DNA of 37,686 bases from a virus: the IMG/VR virus record IMGVR_UViG_3300019752_000013, positions 1 to 37,686 of that record; one strand, given 5' to 3'. The notes under the pieces were generated by a model, which worked only from the letters and a program-made list of their open reading frames with translations, did not search any database and was not told where the DNA came from. The position numbers and the translations under genes were made by a program. Position 1 is the stretch's first letter. Each line of letters starts with the position of its first letter. Positions 124 to 29,122 of the stretch are shown here, piece after piece.

Positions 124-432
124 AACGGTACCGTTTGATTTTAGCCAGATCTGACATGCAGTGGTCCGGTCGGTTTTGCGGGCGTAAATACGCTTATCAC
201 CAGGCTCTGAAACCCGCTCGCTCTGCACATCAAAAACATTGACGGAGATCATGCGGTTGAGGCCGGGAACGCCCACTGCAACAACAAAATCATCAGGCAG
301 CGGCTGGCTATCATCACCAGCGGGCTGGGCAGGGTTAATCGTGATGATATTACCACCACCCGGGTCAGCAGTTATTTCGTCGGCCTCTGGGTTTCCGCGT
401 GTGTATCTGAGTATTTTTGCAATCAGTCCCAT
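1..432 (-). CDS. Baseplate assembly protein V / tail spike, Mu gp45-like (N-terminal part, split by contig ends)
   Basis: This is the first 144 codons of the spike at the tip of the contractile tail, which pierces the host outer membrane. The ATG at 432-430 overlaps the end of the upstream hub gene (stop at 423). The reading frame runs to base 1 and continues without a break at the other contig end (37474-37563), giving about 173 aa in total. Visible features are an N-terminal domain and then short repeating beta-type segments (NGTVLIDNGSGSITLKSDG), as expected for the beta-helical needle of the gp45/gpV family. The metal-binding tip is in the other part. It lies between the hub (gpP-like) and gp46-like genes, the normal Mu order. 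The family call is firm; the length depends on closing the circle. Confidence 0.85.
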   Translation of the reverse strand, partial: MGLIAKILRYTRGNPEADEITADPGGGNIITINPAQPAGDDSQPLPDDFVVAVGVPGLNRMISVNVFDVQSERVSEPGDKRIYARKTDRTTACQIWLKSNGTVLIDNGSGSITLKSDGVVNINGATISTDGTITSPTAVVSPSV

Positions 433-1649
433 GGGAGTGTCTCCGGCAGTTCGCCGCTAAATGAGCCGGGCATGACCAACTTCAGCGATGAGGTTTTGCC
501 TTGCGCCGACTGCTCCAAAACAACAGAGCGGGCAATTAGGCTGTATCTGCTGTATATCATAGCATCAGGTGCCGTTACGTCGATTGTCTGGCCAGCGCTA
601 AACAGCTCGCCGCCAGCATCTCTCCAGCCCGCCACCCGCGCCGTGTATGTGGCCATACTGCCAAACATCCGGCCCATCTTGGCACCGACTGCAGTAGGCA
701 AATCGGCATCATCAGTGTCTGGCACGTCGTAAACGTGAGGCCTAAGGACGCCATCCAATCGGCTGTTTTTTACCGTGTATTGAGGGCCTGCCTTACCGAT
801 CTTTGTCGGCTCAATGCCGGTAATGTCGCTGTAATACCCCTGAGGATTAAATGCTGCAGACACGGAAAGCAAGGGCGGTTGCCCCTGCTGCAGATGGGTG
901 GTGGCTTGACTGGCGGTTGATTTTCGTATCAGTAGAGCGCCCGAGCTGGTGGCCGACAGTACAAGCCCACGCTGGCTGGCCAGATCGGACAAAAACGACA
1001 GGACATTACGACCCGACGGCAGCGCCACTTGCTCAAACACGGCCCCAATATCAGTATCGGCGACCACCGAGAGGCCAAACGGCGCGCACAGCGTGCTTGC
1101 TATCTCTGTAATTGTCTGCCCCCGAAACTCCAGAGGGTATGCGCTGGCTGGCATGGTGCAGTCATTGAGCACACCAGGCAGCGAGTAACAGGACACGGAC
1201 ACGGTTTTTTCCGACCCGGACACTGATGGGGAGACACCGACCAGAACCCCGGTGAACAGCTCGGAGCCGCCCACCAGAACACGTACCTGACTGAATGAAA
1301 ACGGTCGTATTAGGTCACGAAATCCCGGCTCATCGTGCTCAAACGGAGCGCTGAATGTCACCTGCGGCATAGAGTCAAACGGAAGCATTATCTGCACCGA
1401 TGACCAAAACCGGAAAAGGTGGCCGCCGATGAGTATCGACACGTCGTCAGGGTTATCAGCCGGCTGTGGCTGTGGAAGGTTTTCTGGGCCTGACTGAATG
1501 GCAGGAATGACAACGACAGAGCCGGACTGAATCGGCTCGGAAATGCCCGGATTGGCTGATGATATACGCCAAGACTGCGCTGGATCACCGTACTTTTTGC
1601 GGGCGATCAATTCAAATGTGTCGCCGGGCACTGCTGTGTATTTGCTCAT
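423..1649 (-). CDS. Baseplate hub protein, Mu gpP / gpD-like, with N-terminal LysM-like domain
   Basis: This 408-aa protein should form the trimeric hub holding the spike under the tail tube. Its position between gpN-like and gp45-like genes matches Mu gene P, and its length is close to Mu gpP (about 380 aa). Residues 3-50 look like a LysM fold: YTAVPGDTFELIARKKYGDP, then NPGI and a final hydrophobic VVVIPA. Tail proteins such as P2 gpX carry such a domain separately, so here it appears fused to the hub. The gene overlaps the spike start by 10 bp. No Shine-Dalgarno is visible before the ATG at 1649. The bases directly upstream belong to the duplicated promoter cassette that interrupts the operon here, so translation may be weak or depend on another signal. 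Confidence 0.85.
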   Translation of the reverse strand: MSKYTAVPGDTFELIARKKYGDPAQSWRISSANPGISEPIQSGSVVVIPAIQSGPENLPQPQPADNPDDVSILIGGHLFRFWSSVQIMLPFDSMPQVTFSAPFEHDEPGFRDLIRPFSFSQVRVLVGGSELFTGVLVGVSPSVSGSEKTVSVSCYSLPGVLNDCTMPASAYPLEFRGQTITEIASTLCAPFGLSVVADTDIGAVFEQVALPSGRNVLSFLSDLASQRGLVLSATSSGALLIRKSTASQATTHLQQGQPPLLSVSAAFNPQGYYSDITGIEPTKIGKAGPQYTVKNSRLDGVLRPHVYDVPDTDDADLPTAVGAKMGRMFGSMATYTARVAGWRDAGGELFSAGQTIDVTAPDAMIYSRYSLIARSVVLEQSAQGKTSSLKLVMPGSFSGELPETLPWD

Positions 1650-1650
1650 A

Positions 1651-1745
1651 AGCCAATTTTACACTGTGCAATTTATTTTATCTAAGGTGTTTACTTTTTC
1701 CAGCTAGCTGGATATTATGAACACATCAACTACAGGAGAGCGGCA
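1651..1745 (+). promoter_or_regulatory. Duplicated promoter/leader block of moron cassette 1
   Basis: A sigma-70-type promoter is visible: TTTACT at 1690-1695, a 17-bp spacer and TATTAT at 1713-1718, with AGGAG at 1734-1738 before the ATG at 1746. The block is nearly the same as 5872-5959; the first 35 bases are identical. It also contains a 13-bp near-palindrome (TTACACTGTGCAA) shared by both copies. A perfect 12-bp palindrome (CCAGCTAGCTGG, 1700-1711) lies inside the promoter spacer and is degenerate in copy 2. Promoter function is inferred from sequence only. Confidence 0.7.
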
Positions 1746-2045
1746 ATGAAAAGCGAAAATTTTTGTTCTTGGGAATATCTGGAAGAAGATGGGGTTTTTC
1801 TTGTTGCTCACTTGTGGGTATCTCCAGGTGATCGAGGCCAAGGCATTGGTAGAAAGCTCTTAGAAGAAGCAATTAAGGAAATGCGAGAAGATGGCCGCGC
1901 TGAAGAGGTTCAATTGTCTGCCGATTCCGAGCTGGAAGACCCGGAAAGCCCGATAGAGCTGGCTGATCTTGTTGAATTTTACGAAAGTGCTGGATTTGAA
2001 GTCACCTACGCCGGTGAAATTGTGGCGATGAGTATGATGCTGTAG
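1746..2045 (+). CDS. Small GNAT-family acetyltransferase-like protein (moron)
   Basis: This 99-aa protein is on the strand opposite the surrounding tail genes. It contains a GNAT motif A, LWVSPGDRGQGIGRKLLEEA at about residues 26-45, where the Q/R-x-x-G-x-G/I turn binds the acetyl-CoA pyrophosphate. A C-terminal LVEFYESAGF segment matches the usual GNAT motif B ending. It is shorter than typical GNATs (about 140-160 aa) because the N-terminal substrate-binding part is brief. The start has a good AGGAG site 8 bp upstream and the duplicated sigma-70 promoter. The substrate is unknown. Protein modification that helps the phage or excludes rivals is possible but only a guess. Confidence 0.75.
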   Translation: MKSENFCSWEYLEEDGVFLVAHLWVSPGDRGQGIGRKLLEEAIKEMREDGRAEEVQLSADSELEDPESPIELADLVEFYESAGFEVTYAGEIVAMSMML

Positions 2046-2069
2046 CGCATCAACTAGAGGACGGCGGGA

Positions 2070-2273
2070 ATGGAAAAATTGGCAGTGAATGCAATTAGGC
2101 GCGTAAAAGTTGAATTTACAGAAGTTGTTAGACTTCCCCGATTCACCATGAAAAAAGGCGATATCTGGGAGGTTCGGCCCGATAGGCTGGAAAAAGAAGG
2201 TTTTGCGCTTGGTGGTGGATTTGTCAGCAATGATAAATTCACGGTCGCAGGGCTTAAAAGAAAGCGGAAATAG
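2070..2273 (+). CDS. Hypothetical protein, second gene of moron cassette 1
   Basis: A 67-aa basic protein starting 25 bp after the acetyltransferase stop, with a GAGG-type ribosome site (gaggacggcggga) before the ATG. It contains a KGDIWEVRPDRLEKEGFALG segment resembling a small SH3-like or KOW-like beta barrel, and a lysine/arginine-rich tail (LKRKRK). I recognise no family. It is probably co-transcribed with the acetyltransferase. No clear terminator follows before the convergent gpN-like gene ends at 2298. Confidence 0.6.
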   Translation: MEKLAVNAIRRVKVEFTEVVRLPRFTMKKGDIWEVRPDRLEKEGFALGGGFVSNDKFTVAGLKRKRK

Positions 2274-2297
2274 CACCGGCTCTGGCAGGATTTAACG

Positions 2298-3524
2298 TCA
2301 GACATAATAAACAACCGTCCGACCGGCTGGGATCTCAATAATCTCATCGCCGGTCATTGCGTTTGTGTTAATTAAAAAATCAAGCTGATCATCAACAGAG
2401 CCGTACAACTCGTAACACAAATCAACAATCGTCCGCGCGCGGGTCAGAGTGATCGACCGCTCCTGCTTGAGAGTGAATGAAATCTCAACCAAAAAGCCGA
2501 CCGCTACGGCAACAGCCTCTTGAAGCTGTTGAAACGAAGCGCCGGTATCAATCTGGCCCAAACGGTCAAACTCGCTATCACGCCAGTCCTGCACATCCTC
2601 AAATACCGAAAAAATGGCCTCTGCTGCCGCCAGCGCTTGCGGCTTGGTCTCAAACGTCGTGTTGACGACAGACAGTATCTGGCCGGTGACGTATGTTGAC
2701 GCGTACAGATCCAAAACCCGCAACTGGCTAGAATCGCGCGACTGAGAATCGCCACCAACAATCGACCGGGCAAGATTACCGTAGGCGTCCAGCCGGTCTT
2801 GGATTGCAGACAACCCCCGCGCCGGTGACTGAATCAGAATCCCGGTCTGAAACGCCAGCGCCAAAGGCTCCTTAATCGCCGTGTCAATGGTGCTATTTAT
2901 ACTGTCAAAAACCGCGTTGAATTGCGTTGCGACTGCTCCACCAGCGGGCACCAGAAGGTCAGACACCGACGATGCCAGGCCATCAAGAAGCCTCTGGTAA
3001 TCGCCCTTGAGCACTGCCGTTTCAGACACTGATAAATCCCCGACAGCATCAGCGTACTCTGCTGCAATCGATGCATTAAATTCATCGACAGCGCCAATGA
3101 CAACCGATGCAGGGCTTGCTTGAGATGTCGGGTACAGTAACGGCAATGTCTCCCAAAACGTGACGTCAATAACGCTCTGATTTGCCGCTGTTTTGAGATC
3201 ATCGCGACGTGATATTTCGCCGAACGGAACCACATCAAGCTGACCATAAACCGGATGCTCCAGACTCCCTGCACCAGACTCCAGAAGCAGAGCCTCGAAC
3301 GCATCCGACTGAAGATCGTGATCATCACCCCAGAAGATGACGCGCAGCGGGTATCGGCGGCCAGACCGGCCCAGCACTTGAATGTAATTTCCATCTACGC
3401 CCGGAAACGAAAACGCACTGCCGGTTTTTTCGACCGATCGGCTGACTGTCTCATAATCAAACGCAATACGGGTGCCACCAGGTGATGTATAGGCGGCTTC
3501 TCTGAGTCGATCATTCCACGCCAT
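2298..3524 (-). CDS. DNA circularisation / baseplate protein, Mu gpN-like
   Basis: This 408-aa protein is related to the Mu gpN family ('DNA circulation protein'), a baseplate component. The N-terminal region (WNDRLREAAYTSPGGTRIAF, then an SFPGVDGNYIQVLGRSGRRY stretch and a conserved YPLRVIFWGDDHD) is characteristic of the family. The C-terminal half is helical with a final EIPAGRTVVYYV beta segment. The ATG overlaps the tape-measure stop (TAATG), and AGGGGA upstream serves as ribosome site. Its downstream partner, the hub gene, is separated from it by moron cassette 1. Confidence 0.85.
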   Translation of the reverse strand: MAWNDRLREAAYTSPGGTRIAFDYETVSRSVEKTGSAFSFPGVDGNYIQVLGRSGRRYPLRVIFWGDDHDLQSDAFEALLLESGAGSLEHPVYGQLDVVPFGEISRRDDLKTAANQSVIDVTFWETLPLLYPTSQASPASVVIGAVDEFNASIAAEYADAVGDLSVSETAVLKGDYQRLLDGLASSVSDLLVPAGGAVATQFNAVFDSINSTIDTAIKEPLALAFQTGILIQSPARGLSAIQDRLDAYGNLARSIVGGDSQSRDSSQLRVLDLYASTYVTGQILSVVNTTFETKPQALAAAEAIFSVFEDVQDWRDSEFDRLGQIDTGASFQQLQEAVAVAVGFLVEISFTLKQERSITLTRARTIVDLCYELYGSVDDQLDFLINTNAMTGDEIIEIPAGRTVVYYV

Positions 3525-5176
3525 TAGAAATCCCCTGTACTGGCAAGCTGAAGGCCTGCGCCAAGTTTTCCGCCAGTGACTTCAGCTCGGCCAGTCTGGT
3601 CTCTGATCGTGACCTCTGCAGTGCTGGTGGTGCGGTTTTCTTCGATACTGCGGGCCGTGCGTTCGGCTGGTGAAACCATGGCTGGTGGATCATCGTCGCC
3701 AAAGCCAAAGAAAGATCCTACCGACCCAACACCCTCTGAAACAGCCTTAACACCACCACCAATGACATCGCCGACACCATCGGTAATGCCGGAAACGGTA
3801 TCAGACACAGACGAAGCAAGCCCTCTGATTTTATCGACTATCCCCATAATTCGGGACATCGCAGCATCAAACGTATCGACGATGCCACTCCACAAGTCGT
3901 CAAAAAACTGACTGATAGGCTCCCAGTTATCCATCAGATACCCTGCAGCATCAATCAGCAGCATTAGCGGGGTTAGCATCAAATCAATTGCCGCCTTGGC
4001 AGGCCCCGGAAGGCCGTCAAACGCTTCCTGCAGCCACAGAAACGCTTTAAGCACACTGGTCTTGATAGCGTCCGCAAAATCCAGCATTGCAGCCTTAATG
4101 TCGTCCCACCAGTAGATCACGGCAGCTATTGCAGCCCCTAGAGCAATCAAAGCCAAAATAATAATTGTGATCGGGTTGGCCGCCATAACAAGATTGACTG
4201 CTGTCATGACCAGCACCAGTGTTTTCAGGACGGCAGTAAATGCGATAAACACCGCCAGTCCTGTTCCGATTTTTCCGATCCAGTCAACAATCTCACTGAA
4301 ATTATCAATCAGCCATCGCACACCATCAGCAAAACGCTGGACAAAATCTGATATTTTTGAGCTTACCAATTCCTTGTTGGCTCTGAGCCAGTCGGTGAGC
4401 TGCTCAATCATCGGAGCCATTGCGCCTCCAGCCAGGCCAGCTATTTCGCTGGTGATGCTGGATACCGCTCCAGTCACGGCTTTGATTTGCTCCTGAAACG
4501 CCACGGAACCGGCCCGGCTTTCGTCCGTCCTGAACGACAACTCTTTGTATTTTTTGGTGATCTCATCAATAGAGGTGCCTTTTTGCCGCAGCACACCGAT
4601 GATTTTATTGGCCTCGCCACCCATTAGGATGTCAGCGGCGGCGGCGGCGGCCTGGGCATCTTCAAGCTGGAGGGCGGCGTCTGTAATGGCCTTTAATTGA
4701 TCCTGCGGCGACAGCTTGCGCAGCTTCTCAAACTCAAGCCCAAGAATGCCGAGCGATTCCGTGACCGGGGTCAATTCTTCGATCCCTTTTGACTCGCCAA
4801 GCTTGTTATTCATTTCTTCAGCCAAGTCGATCACGTTATCAAACTCAAAACCGGCACTTGCAATGGCCTTGGCAAACGCCTCGACCTCTCCGACATCCTG
4901 ATTAACAGATGCCGCAAGATGTTGAGCAGCAACATCAGCCTCGGTGATTTCCGACGTGATGGCCACCAGACCAGCACCAGCCGCTGCCAGACCACCAACA
5001 GCCATACCGACGGAAGCTATGCCGCCAGCCAGCGCATCAGCCTGATCATTGAGAGACCTGAGGTTTGATTCAGCGGCACGAGTAAACCGCCCGATACGCT
5101 GCTGCATGCGACTTACCGGTGCGCTAATGCGGTCAATTGCGGAAAAAACCGCCTCAACTGAAAATCGACCTGCCAT
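3524..5176 (-). CDS. Tail tape measure protein
   Basis: This 550-aa protein sets tail length. By the family rule of about 1.5 angstroms per residue it would specify a tail near 80 nm. Residues 1-120 are helical and alanine-rich with the early-tail motif AIDRISAPVSRMQQRIGRF. A long hydrophobic stretch at about 300-355 (IGTGLAVFIAFTAVLKTLVL onward to AAVIYWWDD) is typical of tape measures and may insert into the host inner membrane. The C-terminus is glycine/serine-rich. The start overlaps the stop of the frameshifted chaperone (TAATG), the universal order chaperone, chaperone-extension, tape measure. Confidence 0.92.
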   Translation of the reverse strand: MAGRFSVEAVFSAIDRISAPVSRMQQRIGRFTRAAESNLRSLNDQADALAGGIASVGMAVGGLAAAGAGLVAITSEITEADVAAQHLAASVNQDVGEVEAFAKAIASAGFEFDNVIDLAEEMNNKLGESKGIEELTPVTESLGILGLEFEKLRKLSPQDQLKAITDAALQLEDAQAAAAAADILMGGEANKIIGVLRQKGTSIDEITKKYKELSFRTDESRAGSVAFQEQIKAVTGAVSSITSEIAGLAGGAMAPMIEQLTDWLRANKELVSSKISDFVQRFADGVRWLIDNFSEIVDWIGKIGTGLAVFIAFTAVLKTLVLVMTAVNLVMAANPITIIILALIALGAAIAAVIYWWDDIKAAMLDFADAIKTSVLKAFLWLQEAFDGLPGPAKAAIDLMLTPLMLLIDAAGYLMDNWEPISQFFDDLWSGIVDTFDAAMSRIMGIVDKIRGLASSVSDTVSGITDGVGDVIGGGVKAVSEGVGSVGSFFGFGDDDPPAMVSPAERTARSIEENRTTSTAEVTIRDQTGRAEVTGGKLGAGLQLASTGDF

Positions 5177-5388
5177 TATTTCGGCCTCGTATGGTGCTTG
5201 AGTTCGGCCCGGATACCGTCATAAAAAAAACGAATCTCAGACATGGTGAGGGTGCGCGGATCAGGAAGGCCCGAGTAATCACGAGCGATCTGCCGCAGCA
5301 TTTCAGAGTATACCGCTGGTAGGGTGTGGCCGCCACGATCCCGTTTGGCGTCGGTGCCGTAGCGAACCACAAGGGTGCTTACTACCCC
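5176..5388 (-). CDS. C-terminal extension of tail assembly chaperone, made by -1 frameshift
   Basis: This frame has no good independent start. It is open back to the slippery T-run at 5388-5394. Slipping -1 there gives a continuous reading (GVVSTLVVRYGTDAKRDRGG and on), adding 70 residues to the 133 before the site, so a fusion of about 203 aa. This matches lambda gpG/gpGT and Mu gp41-type chaperones, where the minor frameshift product recruits the tape measure. The C-terminal motif LTMSEIRFFYDGIRAELK is typical of these extensions. It ends on the tape-measure start codon. Confidence 0.85.
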   Translation of the reverse strand, partial: GVVSTLVVRYGTDAKRDRGGHTLPAVYSEMLRQIARDYSGLPDPRTLTMSEIRFFYDGIRAELKHHTRPK

Positions 5389-5786
5389 AAAAAAAGGGTG
5401 GTGATCGCAATACAGACATTCAGATCACGTTGCTTCATCGCTGAAAATGTCTTGGCGTTGGTCTTTGTGATAGCCCCCATAATAGCCATCATTTTACCCA
5501 TGTCTTCGCCTTTTTTGCGCTTGTCCATCGACATCAGAGCCGCACCGTCCGGCTCATGAAATGTGACTGGAGCGCTATCACTTGCTTGCGGCGTAAATAC
5601 CGGTTGGCCGTCTTCGTCGATCACCAGAGCACCGGCCACCATCGCGCGAATGATACGACGCTTCTGCTTTTCAAATCCTGCGCGGTCTTCGTCATCCATG
5701 GGCTCTGGACTGATGTCCAAATCCATAGCGTCCGCAAAGCGCTGAAATTCCTGTTCGGCCACATCGGCCCCGATTTTTTCGATCAT
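5382..5786 (-). CDS. Tail assembly chaperone (short form)
   Basis: A 134-aa acidic, helical protein that should coat the tape measure before tube polymerisation. I chose the ATG at 5786 (MIEKIGADVAEQEFQRFADA) because an AGAGGG ribosome site precedes it and because similar chaperones begin this way. A longer frame upstream to 5882 would run into the duplicated promoter block and is not needed. The conserved helical part includes DEDRAGFEKQKRRIIRAM and ends in a C-terminal ITTLFLG just before the stop. Its 3' end carries the slippery site. A GC hairpin with a UUCG loop (5811-5827) sits in the leader. Confidence 0.85.
   Translation of the reverse strand: MIEKIGADVAEQEFQRFADAMDLDISPEPMDDEDRAGFEKQKRRIIRAMVAGALVIDEDGQPVFTPQASDSAPVTFHEPDGAALMSMDKRKKGEDMGKMMAIMGAITKTNAKTFSAMKQRDLNVCIAITTLFLG
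5388..5394 (-). other. Programmed -1 ribosomal frameshift site
   Basis: On the minus strand the zero-frame codons are CTT TTT TTG GGG TAG, so the heptamer T TTT TTG fits the X XXY YYZ rule exactly and lies just two codons before the chaperone stop (5382-5384). The whole T-run covers 5389-5395. After slippage the frame reads TTT TTT GGG GTA GTA without stops into the extension. Confidence 0.85.
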
Positions 5787-5871
5787 GTCACTGCCCTCTT
5801 TGAGTGCTGCGCCCCGGCGAACCGGGCAGGGGTCAGGGCTTACCGCGCAGCATATGCCCAAAGCCAATTTT

Positions 5872-5959
5872 ACACTGTGCAATTTATTTTATCTAAAGTG
5901 TTTGATTTTTCCGGTTAGGTGGATATTATGAACAAGCCAACCACAGGAGAATAGGCACA
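5872..5959 (+). promoter_or_regulatory. Duplicated promoter/leader block of moron cassette 2
   Basis: Second copy of the block at 1651-1745. It has TTTGAT at 5901-5906, a 17-bp spacer, TATTAT at 5924-5929 and AGGAG at 5945-5949 before the ATG at 5960. The first 35 bases equal copy 1, including the near-palindrome TTACACTGTGCAA, and similarity continues through the -10 box and ribosome site. The spacer palindrome of copy 1 is not preserved. Confidence 0.7.
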
Positions 5960-6178
5960 ATGAAAAAACCACAGCAATTAAGCAACCAGCTTGAGCAATT
6001 TGCAAAGGATCTTGAAAGTGAGATTGACGCCCGCGACGACATCATTGCCAGAATCAGTCTGGCTTTGACTGGAAACGATACACCGACAGCCAACGAAGTC
6101 CGGCAACTGCCTGATATTGCTGAAAGACTCTCAAAAGAGCTGACAGAGGCAATCTCAAAGCTCAATACAGAAGGATAA
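5960..6178 (+). CDS. Small helical hypothetical protein (moron cassette 2)
   Basis: A 72-aa, highly charged, probably all-helical protein on the strand opposite the tail operon, between the chaperone and tube genes. It begins KKPQQLSNQLEQFAKDLESE and has heptad-like leucine and isoleucine spacing, suggesting a short coiled coil. It has its own promoter, a strong AGGAG ribosome site and a hairpin terminator right after the stop, so it forms a complete transcription unit. I recognise no family. This arrangement is typical of phage morons, whose products often change host physiology or exclude other phages. Confidence 0.7.
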   Translation: MKKPQQLSNQLEQFAKDLESEIDARDDIIARISLALTGNDTPTANEVRQLPDIAERLSKELTEAISKLNTEG

Positions 6179-6180
6179 AG

Positions 6181-6202
6181 AAAAGGCCCCTAGGGGCCTT
6201 TT
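6181..6202. terminator. Bidirectional rho-independent terminator
   Basis: An almost perfect 22-bp inverted repeat (AAAAGGCCCC TA GGGGCCTTTT) lies between the plus-strand moron (stop 6178) and the minus-strand tube gene (stop 6203). A T-run follows on the plus strand and an A/T-run on the other. On the minus strand it would lie right after the tube gene, so it may also reduce late transcription into the chaperone. Confidence 0.85.
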
Positions 6203-6586
6203 TTATTGCTTGGTAAGAACTCCAGGCCCCGACAGATTAACCGCCGCTGCGGCCGACTGGCTGGACACCTGAAGCTCTCCGGTGATCGTTGCAGACCCCT
6301 GATACGTCAGGCCTGACGCATACGTGATGGACATCGGAAAAAACGAGTTACTGTCAGAAATCGACTGCAAAAACTCATGATCACCACGGTCATCATCCAC
6401 CTCAAGAGTCAGGCCGTTGATGGCTAGAGGTACTCGGGTTTTTACAATCCGAGCAGTTCCATTGCCATTCGTCATGACCTCATTCTCAAAACCGCCAAGT
6501 TTTCGCTGGGCTTCAGCGTCTGCTGCAACCGCAAACTCACGACCATCGAGAATGACACTTTCAATGCTTCCGCCTACTGCTGCCAT
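6203..6586 (-). CDS. Tail tube protein, Mu gpM-like
   Basis: A 127-aa protein forming the inner tube of the contractile tail. Its size, its place directly after the sheath, and the pattern GGSIESVILDGREFAVAADA followed by beta-strand-rich NGNGTARIVKTRVPLAINGL agree with the Mu gpM (phage tail tube) family. A strong GGGGGA ribosome site precedes the ATG, and the sheath stop lies 10 bp upstream. The 3' end touches a hairpin terminator introduced with moron cassette 2. Confidence 0.85.
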   Translation of the reverse strand: MAAVGGSIESVILDGREFAVAADAEAQRKLGGFENEVMTNGNGTARIVKTRVPLAINGLTLEVDDDRGDHEFLQSISDSNSFFPMSITYASGLTYQGSATITGELQVSSQSAAAAVNLSGPGVLTKQ

Positions 6587-9396: not shown

Positions 9397-9473
9397 TGGC
9401 ACCCCCAGCAGGACTCGAACCCGCAACAATCGGAATAGAAGTCCGATGCTCTATCCAGTTGAGCTATGGGGGC
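9397..9473 (-). tRNA. tRNA-Arg (anticodon TCT)
   Basis: The minus strand folds into a full cloverleaf: a 7-bp acceptor stem GCCCCCA/TGGGGGT, a D arm, an anticodon stem TCGGA/TCCGA with loop CTTCTAT giving anticodon TCT, and a T arm with GTTCGAGTC. The 3' CCA is encoded (77 nt). It would read AGA codons, which are rare in many gammaproteobacterial hosts. It lies inside the late operon between capsid and neck genes. Confidence 0.95.
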
Positions 9474-9479
9474 ATAAAA

Positions 9480-9554
9480 TGGTGCGCCGAGCAGGATTTG
9501 AACCTACGATCCCCCGATTATGAGTCGGCTGCTTTACCTCTAAGCTACCGGCGC
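9480..9554 (-). tRNA. tRNA with CAT anticodon (elongator Met or Ile2)
   Basis: 75 nt with an encoded CCA. The acceptor stem is GCGCCGG/TCGGCGC (one G-T pair), D stem GCTT/AAGC, anticodon stem CCGA/TCGG with loop CTCATAA (anticodon CAT), and T loop TTCAAAT. The outer anticodon-stem pair (27-43) is a G-G mismatch. The G1-C72 pair excludes an initiator tRNA. Whether C34 is modified to lysidine (Ile) cannot be told from sequence. Only 6 bp separate it from tRNA-Arg. Confidence 0.9.
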
Positions 9555-19336: not shown

Positions 19337-19366
19337 TTGCGCAATTTCCAGATTTTGGGATAAAAT
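19337..19366 (+). promoter_or_regulatory. Probable early promoter
   Basis: TTGCGC at 19337-19342, an 18-bp spacer and TAAAAT at 19361-19366 form a plausible sigma-70 promoter. It is followed by CAGGAG at 19381-19386 and the ATG at 19393. It would start the plus-strand operon of three uncharacterised genes. Confidence 0.5.
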
Positions 19367-19392
19367 AAACATTCAACAAACAGGAGATAACC

Positions 19393-20997: not shown

Positions 20998-23277
20998 CAA
21001 AGGCATCATAAACACCCTACCCCTGGCCTTCCTCTTCGGTTCCTCTCCCAAAATCTTCTTCAGAGCTGCGCTTGCGTCTCTGGTTTGCGTCTTGCTTGGG
21101 TTTTCAATGCCGATGGACTCACAAACGTCAGTTGCCGTCATTTGCTCGGTTCGCAACTGATTGACATCGTAGCAGGCCAGTATTTTTTCATGAATCGGAT
21201 CAACGGCTTCGAAGTCTTCGTTAGTAGATGACAGCATGGCCGTTTCTTCCGGCGTCAGCCTCCAGCTTTCTCCAGCCCGAAGCCAGGCGGCAACCTGAGC
21301 CCATAGCTGCTGCATATTTATCTGGTGATCCCACTGGATACGACCCGCACACTCAATCGTCCAAAATCGTTCATTGCCGGTTTCATCGTGCAGGTACTGA
21401 CGGGGGTTTACCGACCCGCCGTAGACCGTCCGGCGCGGGAATTTTGATTCAGCCTTACCGTATGGCAATCGCATTTCATCCAAAGGCTTGGTGATAAACC
21501 CCTTCAGCGCTGCAATGTCTGCCTTTCGAAACGTGGCGTCCAGCTCCCCGAGCTCCCCAATCCAGCACGTGATGGCCAACTTTACAGAGTCCTTGTCTGA
21601 CGGATTCAGGACGATTGCCTCGCGGAACCAGTCGTGATTTGTGCCCATCAGAGACCGAAACCAAGGCGTCTTACCAATGCCCTGCTCACCCTGAAGCACC
21701 AACACGCCCTTGCTCGAAAACTGCCCGTTTGGCTGCACCACGGCGGCGACGGCTGAAATCAGCCAGCGCTTCAGCAGCACAGCAGCAAGCTCGTTGTTTT
21801 TTGCATTTAGGGTGGCCAGCAAATCAGGAAACCGGTCGGTACCGTCCCACCCCCGCGAATCTATCCAGCCCAAAACCGGGTTGTAATAGTTCTGACTGGC
21901 CAGATAATTAACGATCCCATGGACACAAGTCGCTGGCAGGTCTGCCTGCGTTGCCCGCGTCTCCAGCTCGATAATGGCGTTGTTTTGGGCGTTGTCGATC
22001 AAGAACGACCGACCGGGAATGTTGATCTCGATCTCTTTACTGACCACATTGTAACGACAGGTGATGTCGTGATAACGCAGCAGGGCCGCGACGTTGGGAA
22101 TGGTGGCTTTCGGCTTTCCTTTGCTTGTGACGTCAGGAAACACGATCAGACCGCCATCGCCTGTCATAGCGCGCTCTGGGGCATCTTCCGGCACATCCGC
22201 TGGTGGCTGGTGCTCATAATCGCTATACGACTCGATGGGCGGCTCTTCTTCAGGTTGCAGATCAACAACCTTAATCCGCTCTTTAATCCAGCCGATCAAA
22301 TCAGCACTACCAGACCAGTCACAATCAGCAACATCCCAACCCTTCGGCAGATCTTGATCTGGCTCAACCAATTTAATGCTCTTGGCCTGTGAGAGCTGCG
22401 CGATACCAGGAACAAAATCGCCCGGCTTGCGCTCATACCCCACCATCACCTGACGGCCCGGCTCGTCATTGTCCGGCCATAGCACAATATTTCGACCCGT
22501 CAGGGGTGACCAGTCTGTTTTACTGGTGCCTTTTGATCCGCCGCACCAGGACACTGCAACAACACGGCCATCATCAGCCAGCGCCTTGGCTGCTGCATCC
22601 CGCGCCTTTTCTCCCTCAACCACGAGCACTTGCGCCGACGGATTCGCCACCAGTTCAGATAGCCCGTAAATTGGCCTCAGGTCAGGGATTGTTCTGATCG
22701 TCCATCCCGCATGCGTCCAGCACACTTGAGGGGTGATCTTGCCGTCCTGCATATCAAAACGCAGGACATAACCAACCAACCGGCCTGCAGCGTCAGTGTA
22801 CGGATGCACCATTGACGGCTCTGCTCTACGCCAAACCTTTACAGTGCCATCGTCATTTTTGCGTTTCGGGTTCGTCAGATCGACCCGCTGACCCGGAATA
22901 ATTCGCTGGTCTGCTGGTGGTTCAATCCATGGGTAATCAGCGTAATAATCGACCCGCTCTGATGCTCGTTTTTTTGACTGGGCACTGGCTGGCAACTCCC
23001 GCTTTCCGCCCAGCGATTCGCACGCCTCGACAAACGTGCAACCAGCGTACTCCATGACAAAATCAATGGCGTCACCATGCGCGTCGCAGCCAAAACAGTG
23101 GTAAAACCCCCTGTCTGGCACCACGCGAAATGACGGGGTTTTCTCCTCATGGAATGGGCAGCACACCTCGAACTCTCTGCCGTTCGGTTTGAGATCAACA
23201 TAGCCACCGATCAGCTCGCCCAAGTCGATTCCTGCTGTGATCGCGTCAACGTCAAATTTATTGTTGTTATTTTTCAT
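20980..23277 (-). CDS. DNA primase / helicase fusion (CHC2 zinc finger, TOPRIM, VapE-like ATPase)
   Basis: A 765-aa replication protein in three parts. A CHC2 zinc finger has C40-P-F-H43 and C61-F-G-C64. A TOPRIM-like region at about 215-290 includes VLVVEGEKARDAAAKALADD and the acidic IVLWPDNDEPGR. A C-terminal VapE/D5-type ATPase has Walker A LQGEQGIGKT near 530-540, ITCWIGELGELDATFRKADI, and the conserved GSVNPRQYLHDETGNERFW. It would prime and unwind phage DNA, probably at the iteron-bearing origin. The start overlaps the end of a small HTH gene by 11 bp. I am sure of the domains, less of the exact activities. Confidence 0.93.
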   Translation of the reverse strand: MKNNNNKFDVDAITAGIDLGELIGGYVDLKPNGREFEVCCPFHEEKTPSFRVVPDRGFYHCFGCDAHGDAIDFVMEYAGCTFVEACESLGGKRELPASAQSKKRASERVDYYADYPWIEPPADQRIIPGQRVDLTNPKRKNDDGTVKVWRRAEPSMVHPYTDAAGRLVGYVLRFDMQDGKITPQVCWTHAGWTIRTIPDLRPIYGLSELVANPSAQVLVVEGEKARDAAAKALADDGRVVAVSWCGGSKGTSKTDWSPLTGRNIVLWPDNDEPGRQVMVGYERKPGDFVPGIAQLSQAKSIKLVEPDQDLPKGWDVADCDWSGSADLIGWIKERIKVVDLQPEEEPPIESYSDYEHQPPADVPEDAPERAMTGDGGLIVFPDVTSKGKPKATIPNVAALLRYHDITCRYNVVSKEIEINIPGRSFLIDNAQNNAIIELETRATQADLPATCVHGIVNYLASQNYYNPVLGWIDSRGWDGTDRFPDLLATLNAKNNELAAVLLKRWLISAVAAVVQPNGQFSSKGVLVLQGEQGIGKTPWFRSLMGTNHDWFREAIVLNPSDKDSVKLAITCWIGELGELDATFRKADIAALKGFITKPLDEMRLPYGKAESKFPRRTVYGGSVNPRQYLHDETGNERFWTIECAGRIQWDHQINMQQLWAQVAAWLRAGESWRLTPEETAMLSSTNEDFEAVDPIHEKILACYDVNQLRTEQMTATDVCESIGIENPSKTQTRDASAALKKILGEEPKRKARGRVFMMPLKKISS

Positions 23278-23446
23278 TCAGCAACGCCTCCAGCAGCTTC
23301 AGTGTGTGTTCTGGTATGTCCGGCCCGGACTTGCAGCGCCACACCCTCACCGTCCCGCTGTGACGCCCCAGTAATTCACCAACGTCATCGCATGTCTTCC
23401 GGTGCTTACTCATCAGCCTGATAAGCCGATTTCGTCGATTGTTCAT
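23267..23446 (-). CDS. Small HTH DNA-binding protein upstream of primase
   Basis: A 59-aa basic protein read from ATG 23446 (MNNRRNRLIRLMSKHRKTC and so on to LEALLNEK). It contains a Cro-like helix-turn-helix: CDDVGELLGRHSGTVRVWRC, with the second helix over HSGTVRVW, then PEHTLKLLEALL. A GAGGAT ribosome site precedes it, and its stop overlaps the primase start. It faces the pentapeptide-repeat operon across an 80-bp gap that carries an inverted repeat, so autoregulation or control of both directions is likely. Confidence 0.75.
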   Translation of the reverse strand: MNNRRNRLIRLMSKHRKTCDDVGELLGRHSGTVRVWRCKSGPDIPEHTLKLLEALLNEK

Positions 23447-23471
23447 TTTTTATCCTCAAGGGGTTTTATTT

Positions 23472-23508
23472 TGTTGTTGTATGTTATACATTTTAAACAT
23501 CAACAACA
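23472..23508. promoter_or_regulatory. Inverted repeat in divergent promoter region (operator candidate)
   Basis: TGTTGTTGTATGTT (23472-23485) and AACATCAACAACA (23496-23508) are inverted copies with one extra base, separated by ten AT-rich bases (ATACATTTTA) that could hold a -10 box. The 79-bp gap between the HTH gene and the first pentapeptide-repeat gene must carry promoters for both directions. Confidence 0.5.
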
Positions 23509-23525
23509 CAACAGAGACAAGCAAA

Positions 23526-23996
23526 ATGAAATACACACAAGGCCAGCTCAACGACATTTTGGAAAATCTTGAAGGTGCAAAAATTGACTTATCGGGTGAC
23601 GATCTCTCTGGATTGGATTTTAAAGGTGCCAACCTGACGCGTGCCAACCTGACGCGTGCCAACCTGACGCGTGCCAACCTGACGGTTGCCAACCTGATGG
23701 GTGCCAACCTGACGGTTGCCAACCTGATGGGTGCCAATCTTTATGGTTGTGTAGGCAATCGCAAGCAAGTCATGACAATCCTGACGTTCGGTGAGTATCT
23801 AGTCACATACACTCATGATCGGCTGCAAATCGGTTGTAAAAACTACCCGATCAATGACTGGTGGGGGTTTGATGATAAAGACATTTTGGAAATGGATGGA
23901 AAAACAGCGCTGAAATTTTGGCGCAAAAACAAGGAATTGATCCGCCAAATTATTGAACAGTGCCCGGCGCAGCCGACAGGCCATGCCGGTGAATAA
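23526..23996 (+). CDS. Pentapeptide repeat protein 1
   Basis: A 156-aa protein. Residues 1-25 (KYTQGQLNDILENLEG) precede a pentapeptide-repeat region at about 27-75 of the A-N-L-x-x type, with seven near-identical units then ANLYG. This should form a short right-handed quadrilateral beta-helix. The C-terminal 80 residues (MTILTFGEYLVTYTHDRLQI, NDWWGFDDKDILEMDGKTAL, FWRKNKELIRQIIEQ) are a separate conserved domain, shared with the protein at 25257. Qnr/MfpA relatives mimic DNA and protect gyrase, but phage functions are largely unknown. The ATG lies after a weak A-rich leader. Confidence 0.85.
   Translation: MKYTQGQLNDILENLEGAKIDLSGDDLSGLDFKGANLTRANLTRANLTRANLTVANLMGANLTVANLMGANLYGCVGNRKQVMTILTFGEYLVTYTHDRLQIGCKNYPINDWWGFDDKDILEMDGKTALKFWRKNKELIRQIIEQCPAQPTGHAGE
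23628..23747 (+). repeat. 15-bp tandem repeat encoding the pentapeptide array
   Basis: Seven 15-bp units GCCAACCTGA[C/T]G[C/G][G/T]T in a row from 23628 to 23732. Units 1-3 are identical (GCCAACCTGACGCGT). Units 4-5 and 6-7 form a perfect 30-bp duplication (23673-23702 and 23703-23732). A degenerate eighth unit ends at 23747. The identity at DNA level shows recent expansion by slippage or recombination. Confidence 0.95.
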
Positions 23997-24165
23997 CCAC
24001 AATTACATTCACGTCTTTATTGCCTTGGTAGCCGTTTTGGCTGCCATGGCATGGGCCAGTAATGGCGACTATGAGCACGAAATTCAGCAGCAACAGCACT
24101 ACAAAGAAATGGTGTGCTCTGGACTTTGGCCAAACTACAAAAAACAGGAGATTGACTGTGACTGA
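23983..24165 (+). CDS. Small membrane protein (60 aa)
   Basis: Starts at ATG 23983 inside the end of the pentapeptide gene (a GTG at 23989 is an alternative). One membrane segment near the N-terminus (YIHVFIALVAVLAAMAWA), then a short charged tail with two cysteines (HYKEMVCSGLWPNYKKQEID). The tail pattern is common in small unnamed phage proteins and resembles that of the protein at 31240. Function unknown. Confidence 0.6.
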   Translation: MPVNNHNYIHVFIALVAVLAAMAWASNGDYEHEIQQQQHYKEMVCSGLWPNYKKQEIDCD

Positions 24166-24901
24166 TAAACACACGCTGGAGCAACAGAAAATAAAATCAG
24201 ACGTCGCCAAGTTTTTGGCTTCTGGCGGAAAAATCAAAAAAGTAGCTGGCTTTGAAAGCGTCAAGCGCAAGCCGATTATTGAGGATTATGACCCTGCCGC
24301 CGTGACTGATGGCGGCGAAGAGTTGCTTACCGCTCGCGCGATCATGCGGCGATACGGCGTTGCAAAATACAGCGTGTCAAAGATGCTCCCGAAGGCCCAG
24401 CATAAAATCAAAAATCCATCCTGCTTCGGCGGAAATAGGCAGCTTAACGCTTGGCCAAAATCCCTCACGGACTCCATCTTTCTGGACTCAGGGTCGTTGA
24501 GGTACAGCCCGACCTGCACAACAATTTCAGCCGCGTCCGAATACTGGGGCATATCCAAGAGCGAGATCAGCGACAAAGTGCAGCGCGGCACCCTGCCACC
24601 GTTTGACGGCACTGATCCAATGCAGTTTTGGACGCGATCAACATGGTCTGAAATCCCCCTGCATGAGCACCTTAAGGAAGATCATGAGGACATTGACGAC
24701 GGTGTGCCAATCAAGGATCTGGCTGCTGAATTTGGCGTTAATACGTACAATCTGACGAAGATGATGAGAAACAACATATTACCACCAGCCGATGGTGTTA
24801 TGCAGATCAGGAACAGCAGCGGAAATTACTACACGTGCAATGCCTATCATCACGGCACAGCGGCAAAAGCACGGACGATTTTAACCAAGGCGAGAGTGTG
24901 A
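24158..24901 (+). CDS. Hypothetical DNA-binding protein with three HTH-like segments
   Basis: A 247-aa protein read from GTG 24158, with AGGAG 8 bp upstream. Three segments look like excisionase/MerR-type helix-turn-helices: LTARAIMRRYGVAKYSVSKM (about 54-73), ISAASEYWGISKSEISDKVQ ending RGTLPPFDG (about 118-146), and IKDLAAEFGVNTYNLTKMMR ending NNILPPADG (about 187-215). Segments 2 and 3 share the ending LPP-[FA]-DG, which suggests internal duplication. A regulator, or a small-terminase-like or recombination factor, is possible. Confidence 0.65.
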   Translation: MTDKHTLEQQKIKSDVAKFLASGGKIKKVAGFESVKRKPIIEDYDPAAVTDGGEELLTARAIMRRYGVAKYSVSKMLPKAQHKIKNPSCFGGNRQLNAWPKSLTDSIFLDSGSLRYSPTCTTISAASEYWGISKSEISDKVQRGTLPPFDGTDPMQFWTRSTWSEIPLHEHLKEDHEDIDDGVPIKDLAAEFGVNTYNLTKMMRNNILPPADGVMQIRNSSGNYYTCNAYHHGTAAKARTILTKARV

Positions 24902-25260
24902 GCCCCATGAAGCCCGGACAGTTATCAATCAACCCTTACGATCTTGTTGTTGCATACGATGGCAACGTGGAGGGATGGGCTGAATATGTAGTGTTATTGG
25001 ACTGCCCGGATGGCTTCCTTGCCCGCCCTGATCACCGCTGCATTGATTACACGATGGGCGGAACAACCATCACTTACTGCCTAAAACCTGCTGCGTGGCA
25101 GGCTCTTTCCGATGGCGACAAGCCGATGATGTCAGTCGTGTTTTCCGGCATGGCCATCAGGCACGGCATGCTGGCAAACCGGAAATCCAGCGGCCCAAAA
25201 ATCCAAACACCACCATTTTGCGAGTGGGTGGAATATCTAAAAAACGGAGAAAACCAATGA
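24898..25260 (+). CDS. Hypothetical protein
   Basis: About 120 aa. The GTG at 24898 overlaps the previous stop (GTGA) with AAGG 7 bp upstream; an in-frame ATG at 24907 is the alternative, giving 117 aa. It contains beta-rich segments (LSINPYDLVVAYDGNVEGWA, YVVLLDCPDGFLARPDHRC) and a helical PAAWQALSDGDKPMMSVVFS. No family recognised. It is coupled to the next pentapeptide gene by an ATGA overlap, so the two may work together. Confidence 0.55.
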   Translation: MSPMKPGQLSINPYDLVVAYDGNVEGWAEYVVLLDCPDGFLARPDHRCIDYTMGGTTITYCLKPAAWQALSDGDKPMMSVVFSGMAIRHGMLANRKSSGPKIQTPPFCEWVEYLKNGENQ

Positions 25261-25859
25261 AATACACACAAAGCCAACTCAACGACATCTTGGAAAATTC
25301 AGACTACGGTCTAATTGATTTTTGTTGTGATGATTTGTCTTTCTTGAGTTTTGACGGTGCTGACCTTTCAGGCTTGAGGTTCGACGGAGCAAAACTTGAC
25401 GGCGCAAAATTCTGCGGCACAAAACTTGACTTTTCGAGCTTTGGCGGTGCCAGCCTTGTGAGTTCCAATTTTTTTGAGGCGAAAACAAATAATACAAATT
25501 TATCTGGCGCTAACTTGGCCGGTTCCAATCTGCTGGATGCAAATTTGGACGGGGCTATCCTTAAGGGTGCCAACCTGTCCAATACTAAACTTTGGGGGTG
25601 TATGGGGAATAGTCAGCAAATCATGACAATATTGATTTTTACAGGATATCCAATCACATACACATCCGACCGGCTTCAGATAGCCTGTAAAAACCATCCG
25701 ATTAGCGAATGGTGGGAATTTGATGATAAAGACATTTTAAAGATGGGAGGGAAAATGTCCCTTAAATTCTGGCGCAAAAACAAAGACCTTATCCGTCAGA
25801 TTGTCGAACAGCGCCCGGCGCAGCCGACAGGCCATGAAGGCAAGGAAACAAACCAATGA
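25257..25859 (+). CDS. Pentapeptide repeat protein 2
   Basis: A 200-aa paralogue of the protein at 23526. It shares the N-terminus KYTQSQLNDILEN and the whole C-terminal domain (TYTSDRLQIACKNHPISEWW, FDDKDILKMGGKMSLKFWRK). Its repeat region is longer and diverged, about residues 25-120, with units such as DLSGL, KLDGA, NLSGA, NLAGS, NLDGA and NLSNT, so it should form a longer beta-helix. The 3' end is almost identical in DNA to the first copy. ATG overlaps the previous stop. Target unknown; gyrase protection or anti-defence action are hypotheses only. Confidence 0.85.
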   Translation: MKYTQSQLNDILENSDYGLIDFCCDDLSFLSFDGADLSGLRFDGAKLDGAKFCGTKLDFSSFGGASLVSSNFFEAKTNNTNLSGANLAGSNLLDANLDGAILKGANLSNTKLWGCMGNSQQIMTILIFTGYPITYTSDRLQIACKNHPISEWWEFDDKDILKMGGKMSLKFWRKNKDLIRQIVEQRPAQPTGHEGKETNQ

Positions 25860-28433: not shown

Positions 28434-28651
28434 GCTATCCCCGTCCAGTATCTCCTGATACGCTCCCGCTCCCGCTTGAGCTTTGCAACGTCGGTGTCGG
28501 CCAGAATCAACTGGCGCTTAGGCCACCAGCCTCGCACGTGAGACATAACCAGATCCCGATACGCCGCAGGCACCTCGCGGGCCAAATACTCCCTGCGCGC
28601 CTCTACTGTCGGGATCAGCAGCATCTCAAATGCGTATTCGCGCGGCCTCAC
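28430..28651 (-). CDS. Small phage-conserved hypothetical protein
   Basis: A 73-aa protein translated from GTG 28651, overlapping the HTH stop (GTGA). It has the pattern MLLIPTVEARREYLAREVPA followed by YRDLVMSHV and a basic arginine-rich tail, a pattern I have seen in small unnamed phage proteins near replication genes. No function can be given. Confidence 0.6.
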   Translation of the reverse strand: MRPREYAFEMLLIPTVEARREYLAREVPAAYRDLVMSHVRGWWPKRQLILADTDVAKLKRERERIRRYWTGIA

Positions 28652-28998
28652 CGCCCAAGCCCGTCAAGATGTTTTTTGATCGCCGCCTTGACAGCGGAAT
28701 CAAACTCTGGCGACTTAGCGCGCCAGAAGCTCAAGGCTCTACGATCAACCCCTGCAGACTTTGCAGCCATAGCAACACGACCGTGGATTGCAAGCTGCTT
28801 CAGAATTGTTTTTTCCTGATTTTTTCGACGCTCAGATACTGTACGCTGCACTCTGGCATTGAACGCCTTGTCCTTCGCCCGATAGTGAACAAACATCTGT
28901 CGAGTGATACCAGCAGCCGTCGCACCGTCGCCGATCCTGCCGGTTGATTTGATGGCCTCGATGGCCAGTTTCTTTTGCTCTGTCGTCATTGTCGTCAT
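28648..28998 (-). CDS. Double HTH DNA-binding protein, probable regulator
   Basis: A 116-aa protein from ATG 28998 (AGGTGG upstream). It is a tandem duplication of one homeodomain-like HTH: residues about 10-50 (GRIGDGATAAGITRQMFVHY, R-x-K-D) and about 65-105 (GRVAMAAKSAGVDRRALSFW, R-x-K-S-P). Each unit ends in a helix with a charged FNARV/FDSAV. It is transcribed away from the recombination operon across a 124-bp gap containing inverted repeats, so it may regulate both. Relatives also occur as small-terminase HTHs, but a terminase is already present here. Confidence 0.72.
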   Translation of the reverse strand: MTTMTTEQKKLAIEAIKSTGRIGDGATAAGITRQMFVHYRAKDKAFNARVQRTVSERRKNQEKTILKQLAIHGRVAMAAKSAGVDRRALSFWRAKSPEFDSAVKAAIKKHLDGLGR

Positions 28999-29122
28999 AT
29001 TAACCACCTGTTTTGATCTGTTCCGATCATCCCACAAACTGGAAAAAACGAAAAGGTTTTGTTGTGTTTTTTAAACCTGTGTGGTTTTATTTGCCTGCAA
29101 CCAAAAACAATCAGGAATCACT
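28999..29122. promoter_or_regulatory. Divergent control region between HTH and recombination operons
   Basis: Holds TGATC-N6-GATCA (29014-29029) close to the HTH start and an inverted repeat AAACC-TGTGT-GGTTT downstream. A possible plus-strand promoter TTGTGT-N17-TTTTAT lies before the exonuclease. The repeats could be the operators of the divergently encoded HTH protein. Confidence 0.45.

Follow-up and report, generated by a model that had tools for sequence, protein, structure and literature searches.

Moron loci such as pid of P22 (PMC3573128) consist of one or a few small orphan genes inserted into the late region of a phage genome, antisense to their neighbours. Repeats within a phage that lie close to where accessory or early-type genes begin, in part with inverted repeats, are known from Cluster K mycobacteriophages as start-associated sequences (PMC3203893), while in archaeal viruses one strong early promoter precedes varied small accessory genes in the form of early regulatory sequences before anti-defence genes (PMC11065993). 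The locus described here has features in common with each of these. It lies in IMG/VR virus record IMGVR_UViG_3300019752_000013, which was analysed over its whole length of 37,686 bases (hereafter the window), and comprises two plus-strand cassettes within a minus-strand tail operon, each headed by a copy of the same 90-bp block. We estimate a probability of roughly 0.7 that both cassettes are morons placed behind copies of the phage's own early promoter-leader-ribosome-site module, which would be present four times in the window. The repeated block is therefore best read as a reused switch belonging to the phage rather than as a jumping element.

As with the pid-type morons, the corresponding site in relatives is empty or otherwise filled, and a clear terminator-like hairpin follows cassette 2. 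In contrast to those morons, the promoter of the window is common to two morons and two units of this phage that are presumed to be early, no clear terminator is seen 3' of cassette 1, and the phage looks lytic, so that expression in a lysogen is not an obvious purpose. The Cluster K repeat is a 13-bp GGGATAGGAGCCC common to the cluster and found a few bases before start codons; it is absent from the block sequence, and the repeat of the window is a longer, promoter-like module private to this phage. The archaeal virus sequences are archaeal promoters of tested function, whereas the roles of the window's cargo are conjectural. A further likeness is to an early promoter-like site of the T4-like Klebsiella phage pzk-kv8 (GTGTTTACTT...TATTAT...ACACATCAA; 47 bases, E 0.006), which is a single weak match.

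The two blocks are identical at 80 of 90 positions (89%, BLAST E 1e-29). Their leftmost 36 bases are the same, with all 10 mismatches falling within the last 54 (P 0.004, post hoc). The original prediction, made from the sequence alone, had reported two blocks sharing an identical start; the repeat is real, with left ends at 1650 and 5861, slightly earlier than the 1651 and 5872 first proposed. The hexamers spaced by 17 bp, the AGGAG sites and the plus-strand open reading frames of 99, 67 and 72 amino acids were also found as described. The promoter-like hexamers read TTTACT-17-TATTAT in block 1, and TTTGAT-17-TATTAT or alternatively TTGATT-16-TATTAT in block 2, with an AT-rich stretch 5' of the -35 occupying the position of an UP element. 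Each block had furthermore been said to adjoin the start of a tail gene. This is true of the baseplate hub gene (start 1649), and not of the gene left of block 2, termed TAC, for which homology begins at 5786; a structured RNA element sits between that point and the block. The TAC gene probably encodes a tail assembly chaperone, as judged by gene position and weak similarity (the PF10109 match has an E-value of only 0.06). A possible leader peptide in the block (MNTSTTGERQ / MNKPTTGE) was rejected, since its ATG overlaps the -10 and hence lies 5' of the expected transcription start.

Both strands of the window were searched with a weight matrix derived solely from the two block cores. The best two further matches, at 29045(-) (score 19.1) and 19345(+) (score 16.9), are correctly oriented and directly 5' of the first gene of a unit outside the late genes, with ACAGG after each. 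In 300 dinucleotide shuffles neither the best nor the second-best score was ever reached; an earlier control of 15 Markov shuffles, in which the blocks had been left in the source sequence, produced one outlier with a score of 21.6. The minus-strand copy precedes a helix-turn-helix (HTH) gene starting at 28998, the first gene of a unit that also includes a helicase and a nuclease; the plus-strand copy precedes gene 19393, which has no assigned function and is the first in a run of small genes. Because these best two matches precede presumed early units, the shared block is better explained as part of an early-promoter family of the phage itself. The spacing of the hexamers (16-18) and their position 5' of presumed early genes agree with recognition by sigma70, the early timing being a supposition. 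The reuse of one promoter with differing cargo, as originally proposed, is thus supported. The common regulator of both cargoes that had been offered as an alternative may exist, although the shared promoter family accounts better for the data.

Several observations weigh against the early-promoter module. In the third and fourth copies only the core and leader are present, without the 36-bp left arm, and beyond the UP-like stretch the remainder of this arm finds no explanation as part of a promoter. The hexamers score only 9/12, and 12 such sites occur in the first 10 kb compared with 8.0 ± 3.2 expected. The full block is present in two copies only, making selection inseparable from recent copying, and the presumed early nature of the 19393 and 28998 units is based on gene content.

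If the module acts as an early promoter, it would be read by the host sigma70 RNA polymerase soon after infection, and the cargo would be made early, at a time when the surrounding tail genes are silent. Cargo expression would then be switched off or overrun once late transcription arrives from the opposite strand. The module itself would have multiplied by copying within this genome. Should this be correct, a phage-specific repeated early promoter would flag accessory genes wherever they have landed, even antisense in late operons, and scanning phages for their own repeated promoters would yield a homology-free list of candidate host-takeover or counter-defence genes.

To place the cassettes in context, the tube, TAC, tape-measure, circ (DNA-circularisation-N-domain) and hub genes were mapped in ~70 related loci. 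The circ and hub genes overlap or abut in nearly all loci holding both (52 loci with less than 40 bp, some same-contig), compared with a distance of 652 bp in the window. The tube and TAC genes are normally ~100 bp or less apart in relatives, compared with 420 bp in the window. Hence both cassettes are insertions into a conserved tail operon, which supports the earlier description of extra plus-strand genes set against it. Other genes occur at the circ-hub junction of L024 (109 amino acids) and AeroV_348 (60 amino acids), and at the tube-TAC junction of Scuro (89 amino acids) and L044 (one extra gene), in each case on the operon strand. Both junctions are recurrent landing places, with antisense cargo peculiar to the window. 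The name moron is fair, given that other genes occupy these sites in a few relatives. The composition of the cargo is also unlike that of its flanks, if modestly so (G+C of 0.47 and 0.45 versus 0.53 for the flanking late genes), and its strand, opposite to that of the late genes, suggests independent transcription.

The 67- and 72-residue cargo proteins have no relatives at meaningful E-values in IMG/VR, phages, Pfam, PHROGs or NCBIfam. A match of the 72-residue protein to DrmC (E 0.01) looks like coiled-coil noise and was discarded, while the single-sequence model of the 67-residue protein (predicted local distance difference test score, pLDDT, 59.5) was too poor for a structure search. The cargo plausibly encodes host-takeover or counter-defence factors, bearing in mind that GNAT folds have many roles. 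The hairpin AAAAGGCCCCTAGGGGCCTTTT behind cassette 2 is bordered by A and T runs, with T-runs seen in both directions, and could serve both strands.

It had originally been suggested that the cassettes represent a mobile or modular insertion unit, carrying the promoter together with exchangeable cargo. Two copies with differing cargo at two junctions, and a cargo G+C below that of the flanks, are what such a unit might leave, but neither terminal inverted repeats, a target duplication nor recombinase-like cargo was seen, and the edges share just TTATG or GGCTT. Furthermore, no copy of the block was detected in IMG/VR, GTDB genomes, or phage and plasmid records at the sensitivities used, a sample outside which the nearest kin may fall, and the motif is absent from 19 related phages. 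Exact 29-mers of the block gave 0 matches in IMG/VR and GTDB, and 18-20-mers matched at chance level. We consider a mobile unit very improbable, and this part of the original prediction is unsupported. The prediction was to be given up if the block occurred at these two places only, relatives showed no varying cargo and no transcription started there; the full block is indeed confined to two places, whereas the relatives' sites do vary. Chance similarity or an assembly artefact can practically be dismissed: the record is a single one derived from a metagenome, but the extent and E-value of the 90-bp alignment, the 10 differences between the copies, their differing neighbours and the conserved operon order on both flanks speak against it.

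Two further explanations concern what the block does. The identical left arm abuts a downstream element of the operon at both places, raising the possibility that it also holds a leftward promoter (TAGATA-17-TAAAAT) from which the interrupted late operon would be restarted, immediately ahead of the hub gene in one case and of the TAC RNA element in the other. Leftward 9/12 matches are present at 1684-1656 and 5895-5867, and the hub gene of the window lacks both the overlap with circ seen in relatives and a clear Shine-Dalgarno sequence. Such a two-way module nevertheless appears unlikely, as the leftward match is no better than chance finds, which an AT-rich arm yields easily, and an UP element or operator accounts equally well for the arm. 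The block might instead be an operator, with a phage or host regulator binding either the near-palindrome TTACACTGTGCAA or the spacer palindrome CCAGCTAGCTGG and switching both cargoes together. The palindromes are there, an HTH protein is encoded behind the fourth core copy, and repeated promoters of PY6 and other relatives (see below) also hold palindromes. Exact matches to TTACACTGTGCAA are confined to the two blocks, with the total count at 3 mismatches at chance level. We regard the operator as doubtful, as TTACACTGTGCAA is missing from the two other core copies and the spacer palindrome is asymmetric in block 2, 19345 and 29045.

Pseudoalteromonas phage PY6 provides a parallel in which the arrangement is the same and the promoter family unrelated. 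Here a three-gene antisense cassette separates the tape-measure and circ genes by 899 bp, compared with a few bases in most relatives, and exact or near copies of its promoter-like TTGACTACGTAGCGCCCGCGCGCTACACT precede four more PY6 genes located outside the structural set. Own repeated promoter-like modules were also seen in G002, G004, 97.13 and probably Scuro, with none convincing in the other relatives examined. Palindromes in or beside the -35 of repeated modules occur in L087 (129, 949), L088 (2235, 5197), L084 (7132, 8039, 12407, 19984) and L073 (13927). The design hence recurs among phages, the promoter sequence differing in each. Conserved TTGAC..GTCA sites in Scuro, G002 and G004 were set aside, as they lie within upstream reading frames and resemble conserved coding sequence. 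The early regions of relatives (L084 8103-8405, L083 14824-15135, L082 13830-14330 and ~10 others) have in common a small, conserved TetR-like DNA-binding protein, for which the window proteins compared gave no counterpart. It was rejected as the controller of the window promoters, as nothing homologous to it was detected behind the core copies in the window.

Block 2 begins at the edge of the RNA element, a structure of ~90 bases located between the tube and TAC genes. A covariance model seeded with eleven sequences detects the element at the tube-TAC junction in 37/53 loci (E 0.05 or better), in most cases as a single copy per genome, additional matches being rare and weak; in several relatives without it, TAC directly follows the tube gene. 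Three nested helices show two-sided changes in 15/15 pairs, in an alignment fitted to those helices. Two extra helices lay outside the model. Helix (1):(2) pairs in 84% of cells and shows two-sided changes in 6/7 pairs; the corresponding values for (2):(3) are 85% and 5/7. Adding either extra helix, 93% of all cells pair, compared with 31 to 55% when slid. Since the single-sequence folding energy is no better than that of shuffles (z 0.2 to 0.5), the case for the element rests on its strong covariation. No Rfam 15 family matched at the gathering cut-off (one opposite-strand RF02968 match reached 23.4 bits of the 36.8 needed), and limited literature searches found no description of the element, which is apparently undescribed. 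A short open reading frame inside it was rejected, as it is not conserved: roughly half of the loci have ATG at the start, and ACG is frequent in the remainder.

Strand (2) can pair with (1) or with (3) but not with both simultaneously, and the TAC ribosome site probably corresponds to strand (3), making a translation switch the simplest reading. We tentatively propose, at somewhat less than even odds, a new class of phage RNA switch in which a three-way-junction loop GCCCUA would pair with either an upstream UAGGGC or the UAGGGC ribosome site of TAC, thus setting TAC dose. In the window the upstream partner strand has been shortened to GGGC by the insertion, which would bias such a switch in this phage. 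If the proposal holds, the element would control the amount of a tail assembly protein in a new way, and cultured relatives would allow a test of this.

Table 1. Positions of cassette features and neighbouring tail genes in the window.
Feature	Position	Strand	Details
Baseplate hub gene	423..1649	-	phrog_177 E 3e-77; left neighbour of cassette 1
Block 1	1650..1739	+	TTTACT 1690-1695, 17-base spacer with palindrome CCAGCTAGCTGG, TATTAT 1713-1718, leader, AGGAG site
Cargo 1a, 99-residue GNAT acetyltransferase-like protein	1746..2045	+	PF13508 39.5 bits (cut-off 27); phrog_3810 E 2e-6
Cargo 1b, 67-residue orphan protein	2070..2273	+	No relatives found; poor single-sequence model
DNA-circularisation-N-domain tail gene (circ)	2298..3524	-	PF07157, phrog_184; right neighbour of cassette 1
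TAC tail gene	5382..5786	-	phrog_4648 E 3e-28 from residue 33 of longer open reading frame; left neighbour of cassette 2
Conserved structured RNA element	5784..5864	-	Covariance model E 1.6e-6; 4-base overlap with block 2
Block 2	5861..5950	+	Second copy, 89% identity to block 1
Cargo 2, 72-residue orphan protein, predicted helical hairpin	5960..6178	+	Single-sequence model pLDDT 80; no relatives
Symmetrical terminator-like hairpin AAAAGGCCCCTAGGGGCCTTTT	6181..6202	.	Between 72-residue gene and tube gene; listed as minus-strand terminator
Tail tube gene	6203..6586	-	phrog_4699 E 7e-40; right neighbour of cassette 2
Third promoter-core copy	19345..19371	+	Before gene 19393 (+)
Fourth promoter-core copy	29019..29045	-	Before HTH gene 28648-28998 (-)

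The window constitutes the whole virus record and carries a 123-base repeat at both ends, consistent with a complete genome. Its structural proteins (terminase, portal, sheath, tube, hub, wedge) match PHROGs of contractile-tailed phages. By sheath-protein comparison the nearest named phage is Shewanella phage SppYZU01 (71.7%), with Vibrio phages 367.14 and 97.13, Oceanospirillum phage PD0307 and Acinetobacter phage Scuro also near; the virus is a VP16/SppYZU01-like myophage infecting bacteria. Another relative, SFCi1, is described as a lytic myophage and kin of VP16C/T (PMC5371815). The window phage likewise looks lytic, because none of the proteins scanned was recognised as an integrase or a CI-like repressor.

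Other features of the window include two transfer RNA genes at 9400-9473 and 9483-9554 (-), inside the late operon beside the major capsid gene. Paralogous pentapeptide-repeat genes with near-identical starts are located at 23526-23996 and 25257-25859 (+). A divergent promoter region (23447-23525) separates the first of these from a 59-residue HTH gene (23267-23446), and contains an inverted GTTGTTG..CATCAACAAC that may be an operator. Weak HTH matches, together with a weak SutA-like RNA-polymerase-binding segment (PF20661 E 1.7e-5, below cut-off), make a 279-residue protein (24062-24901, +) a candidate phage transcription factor.

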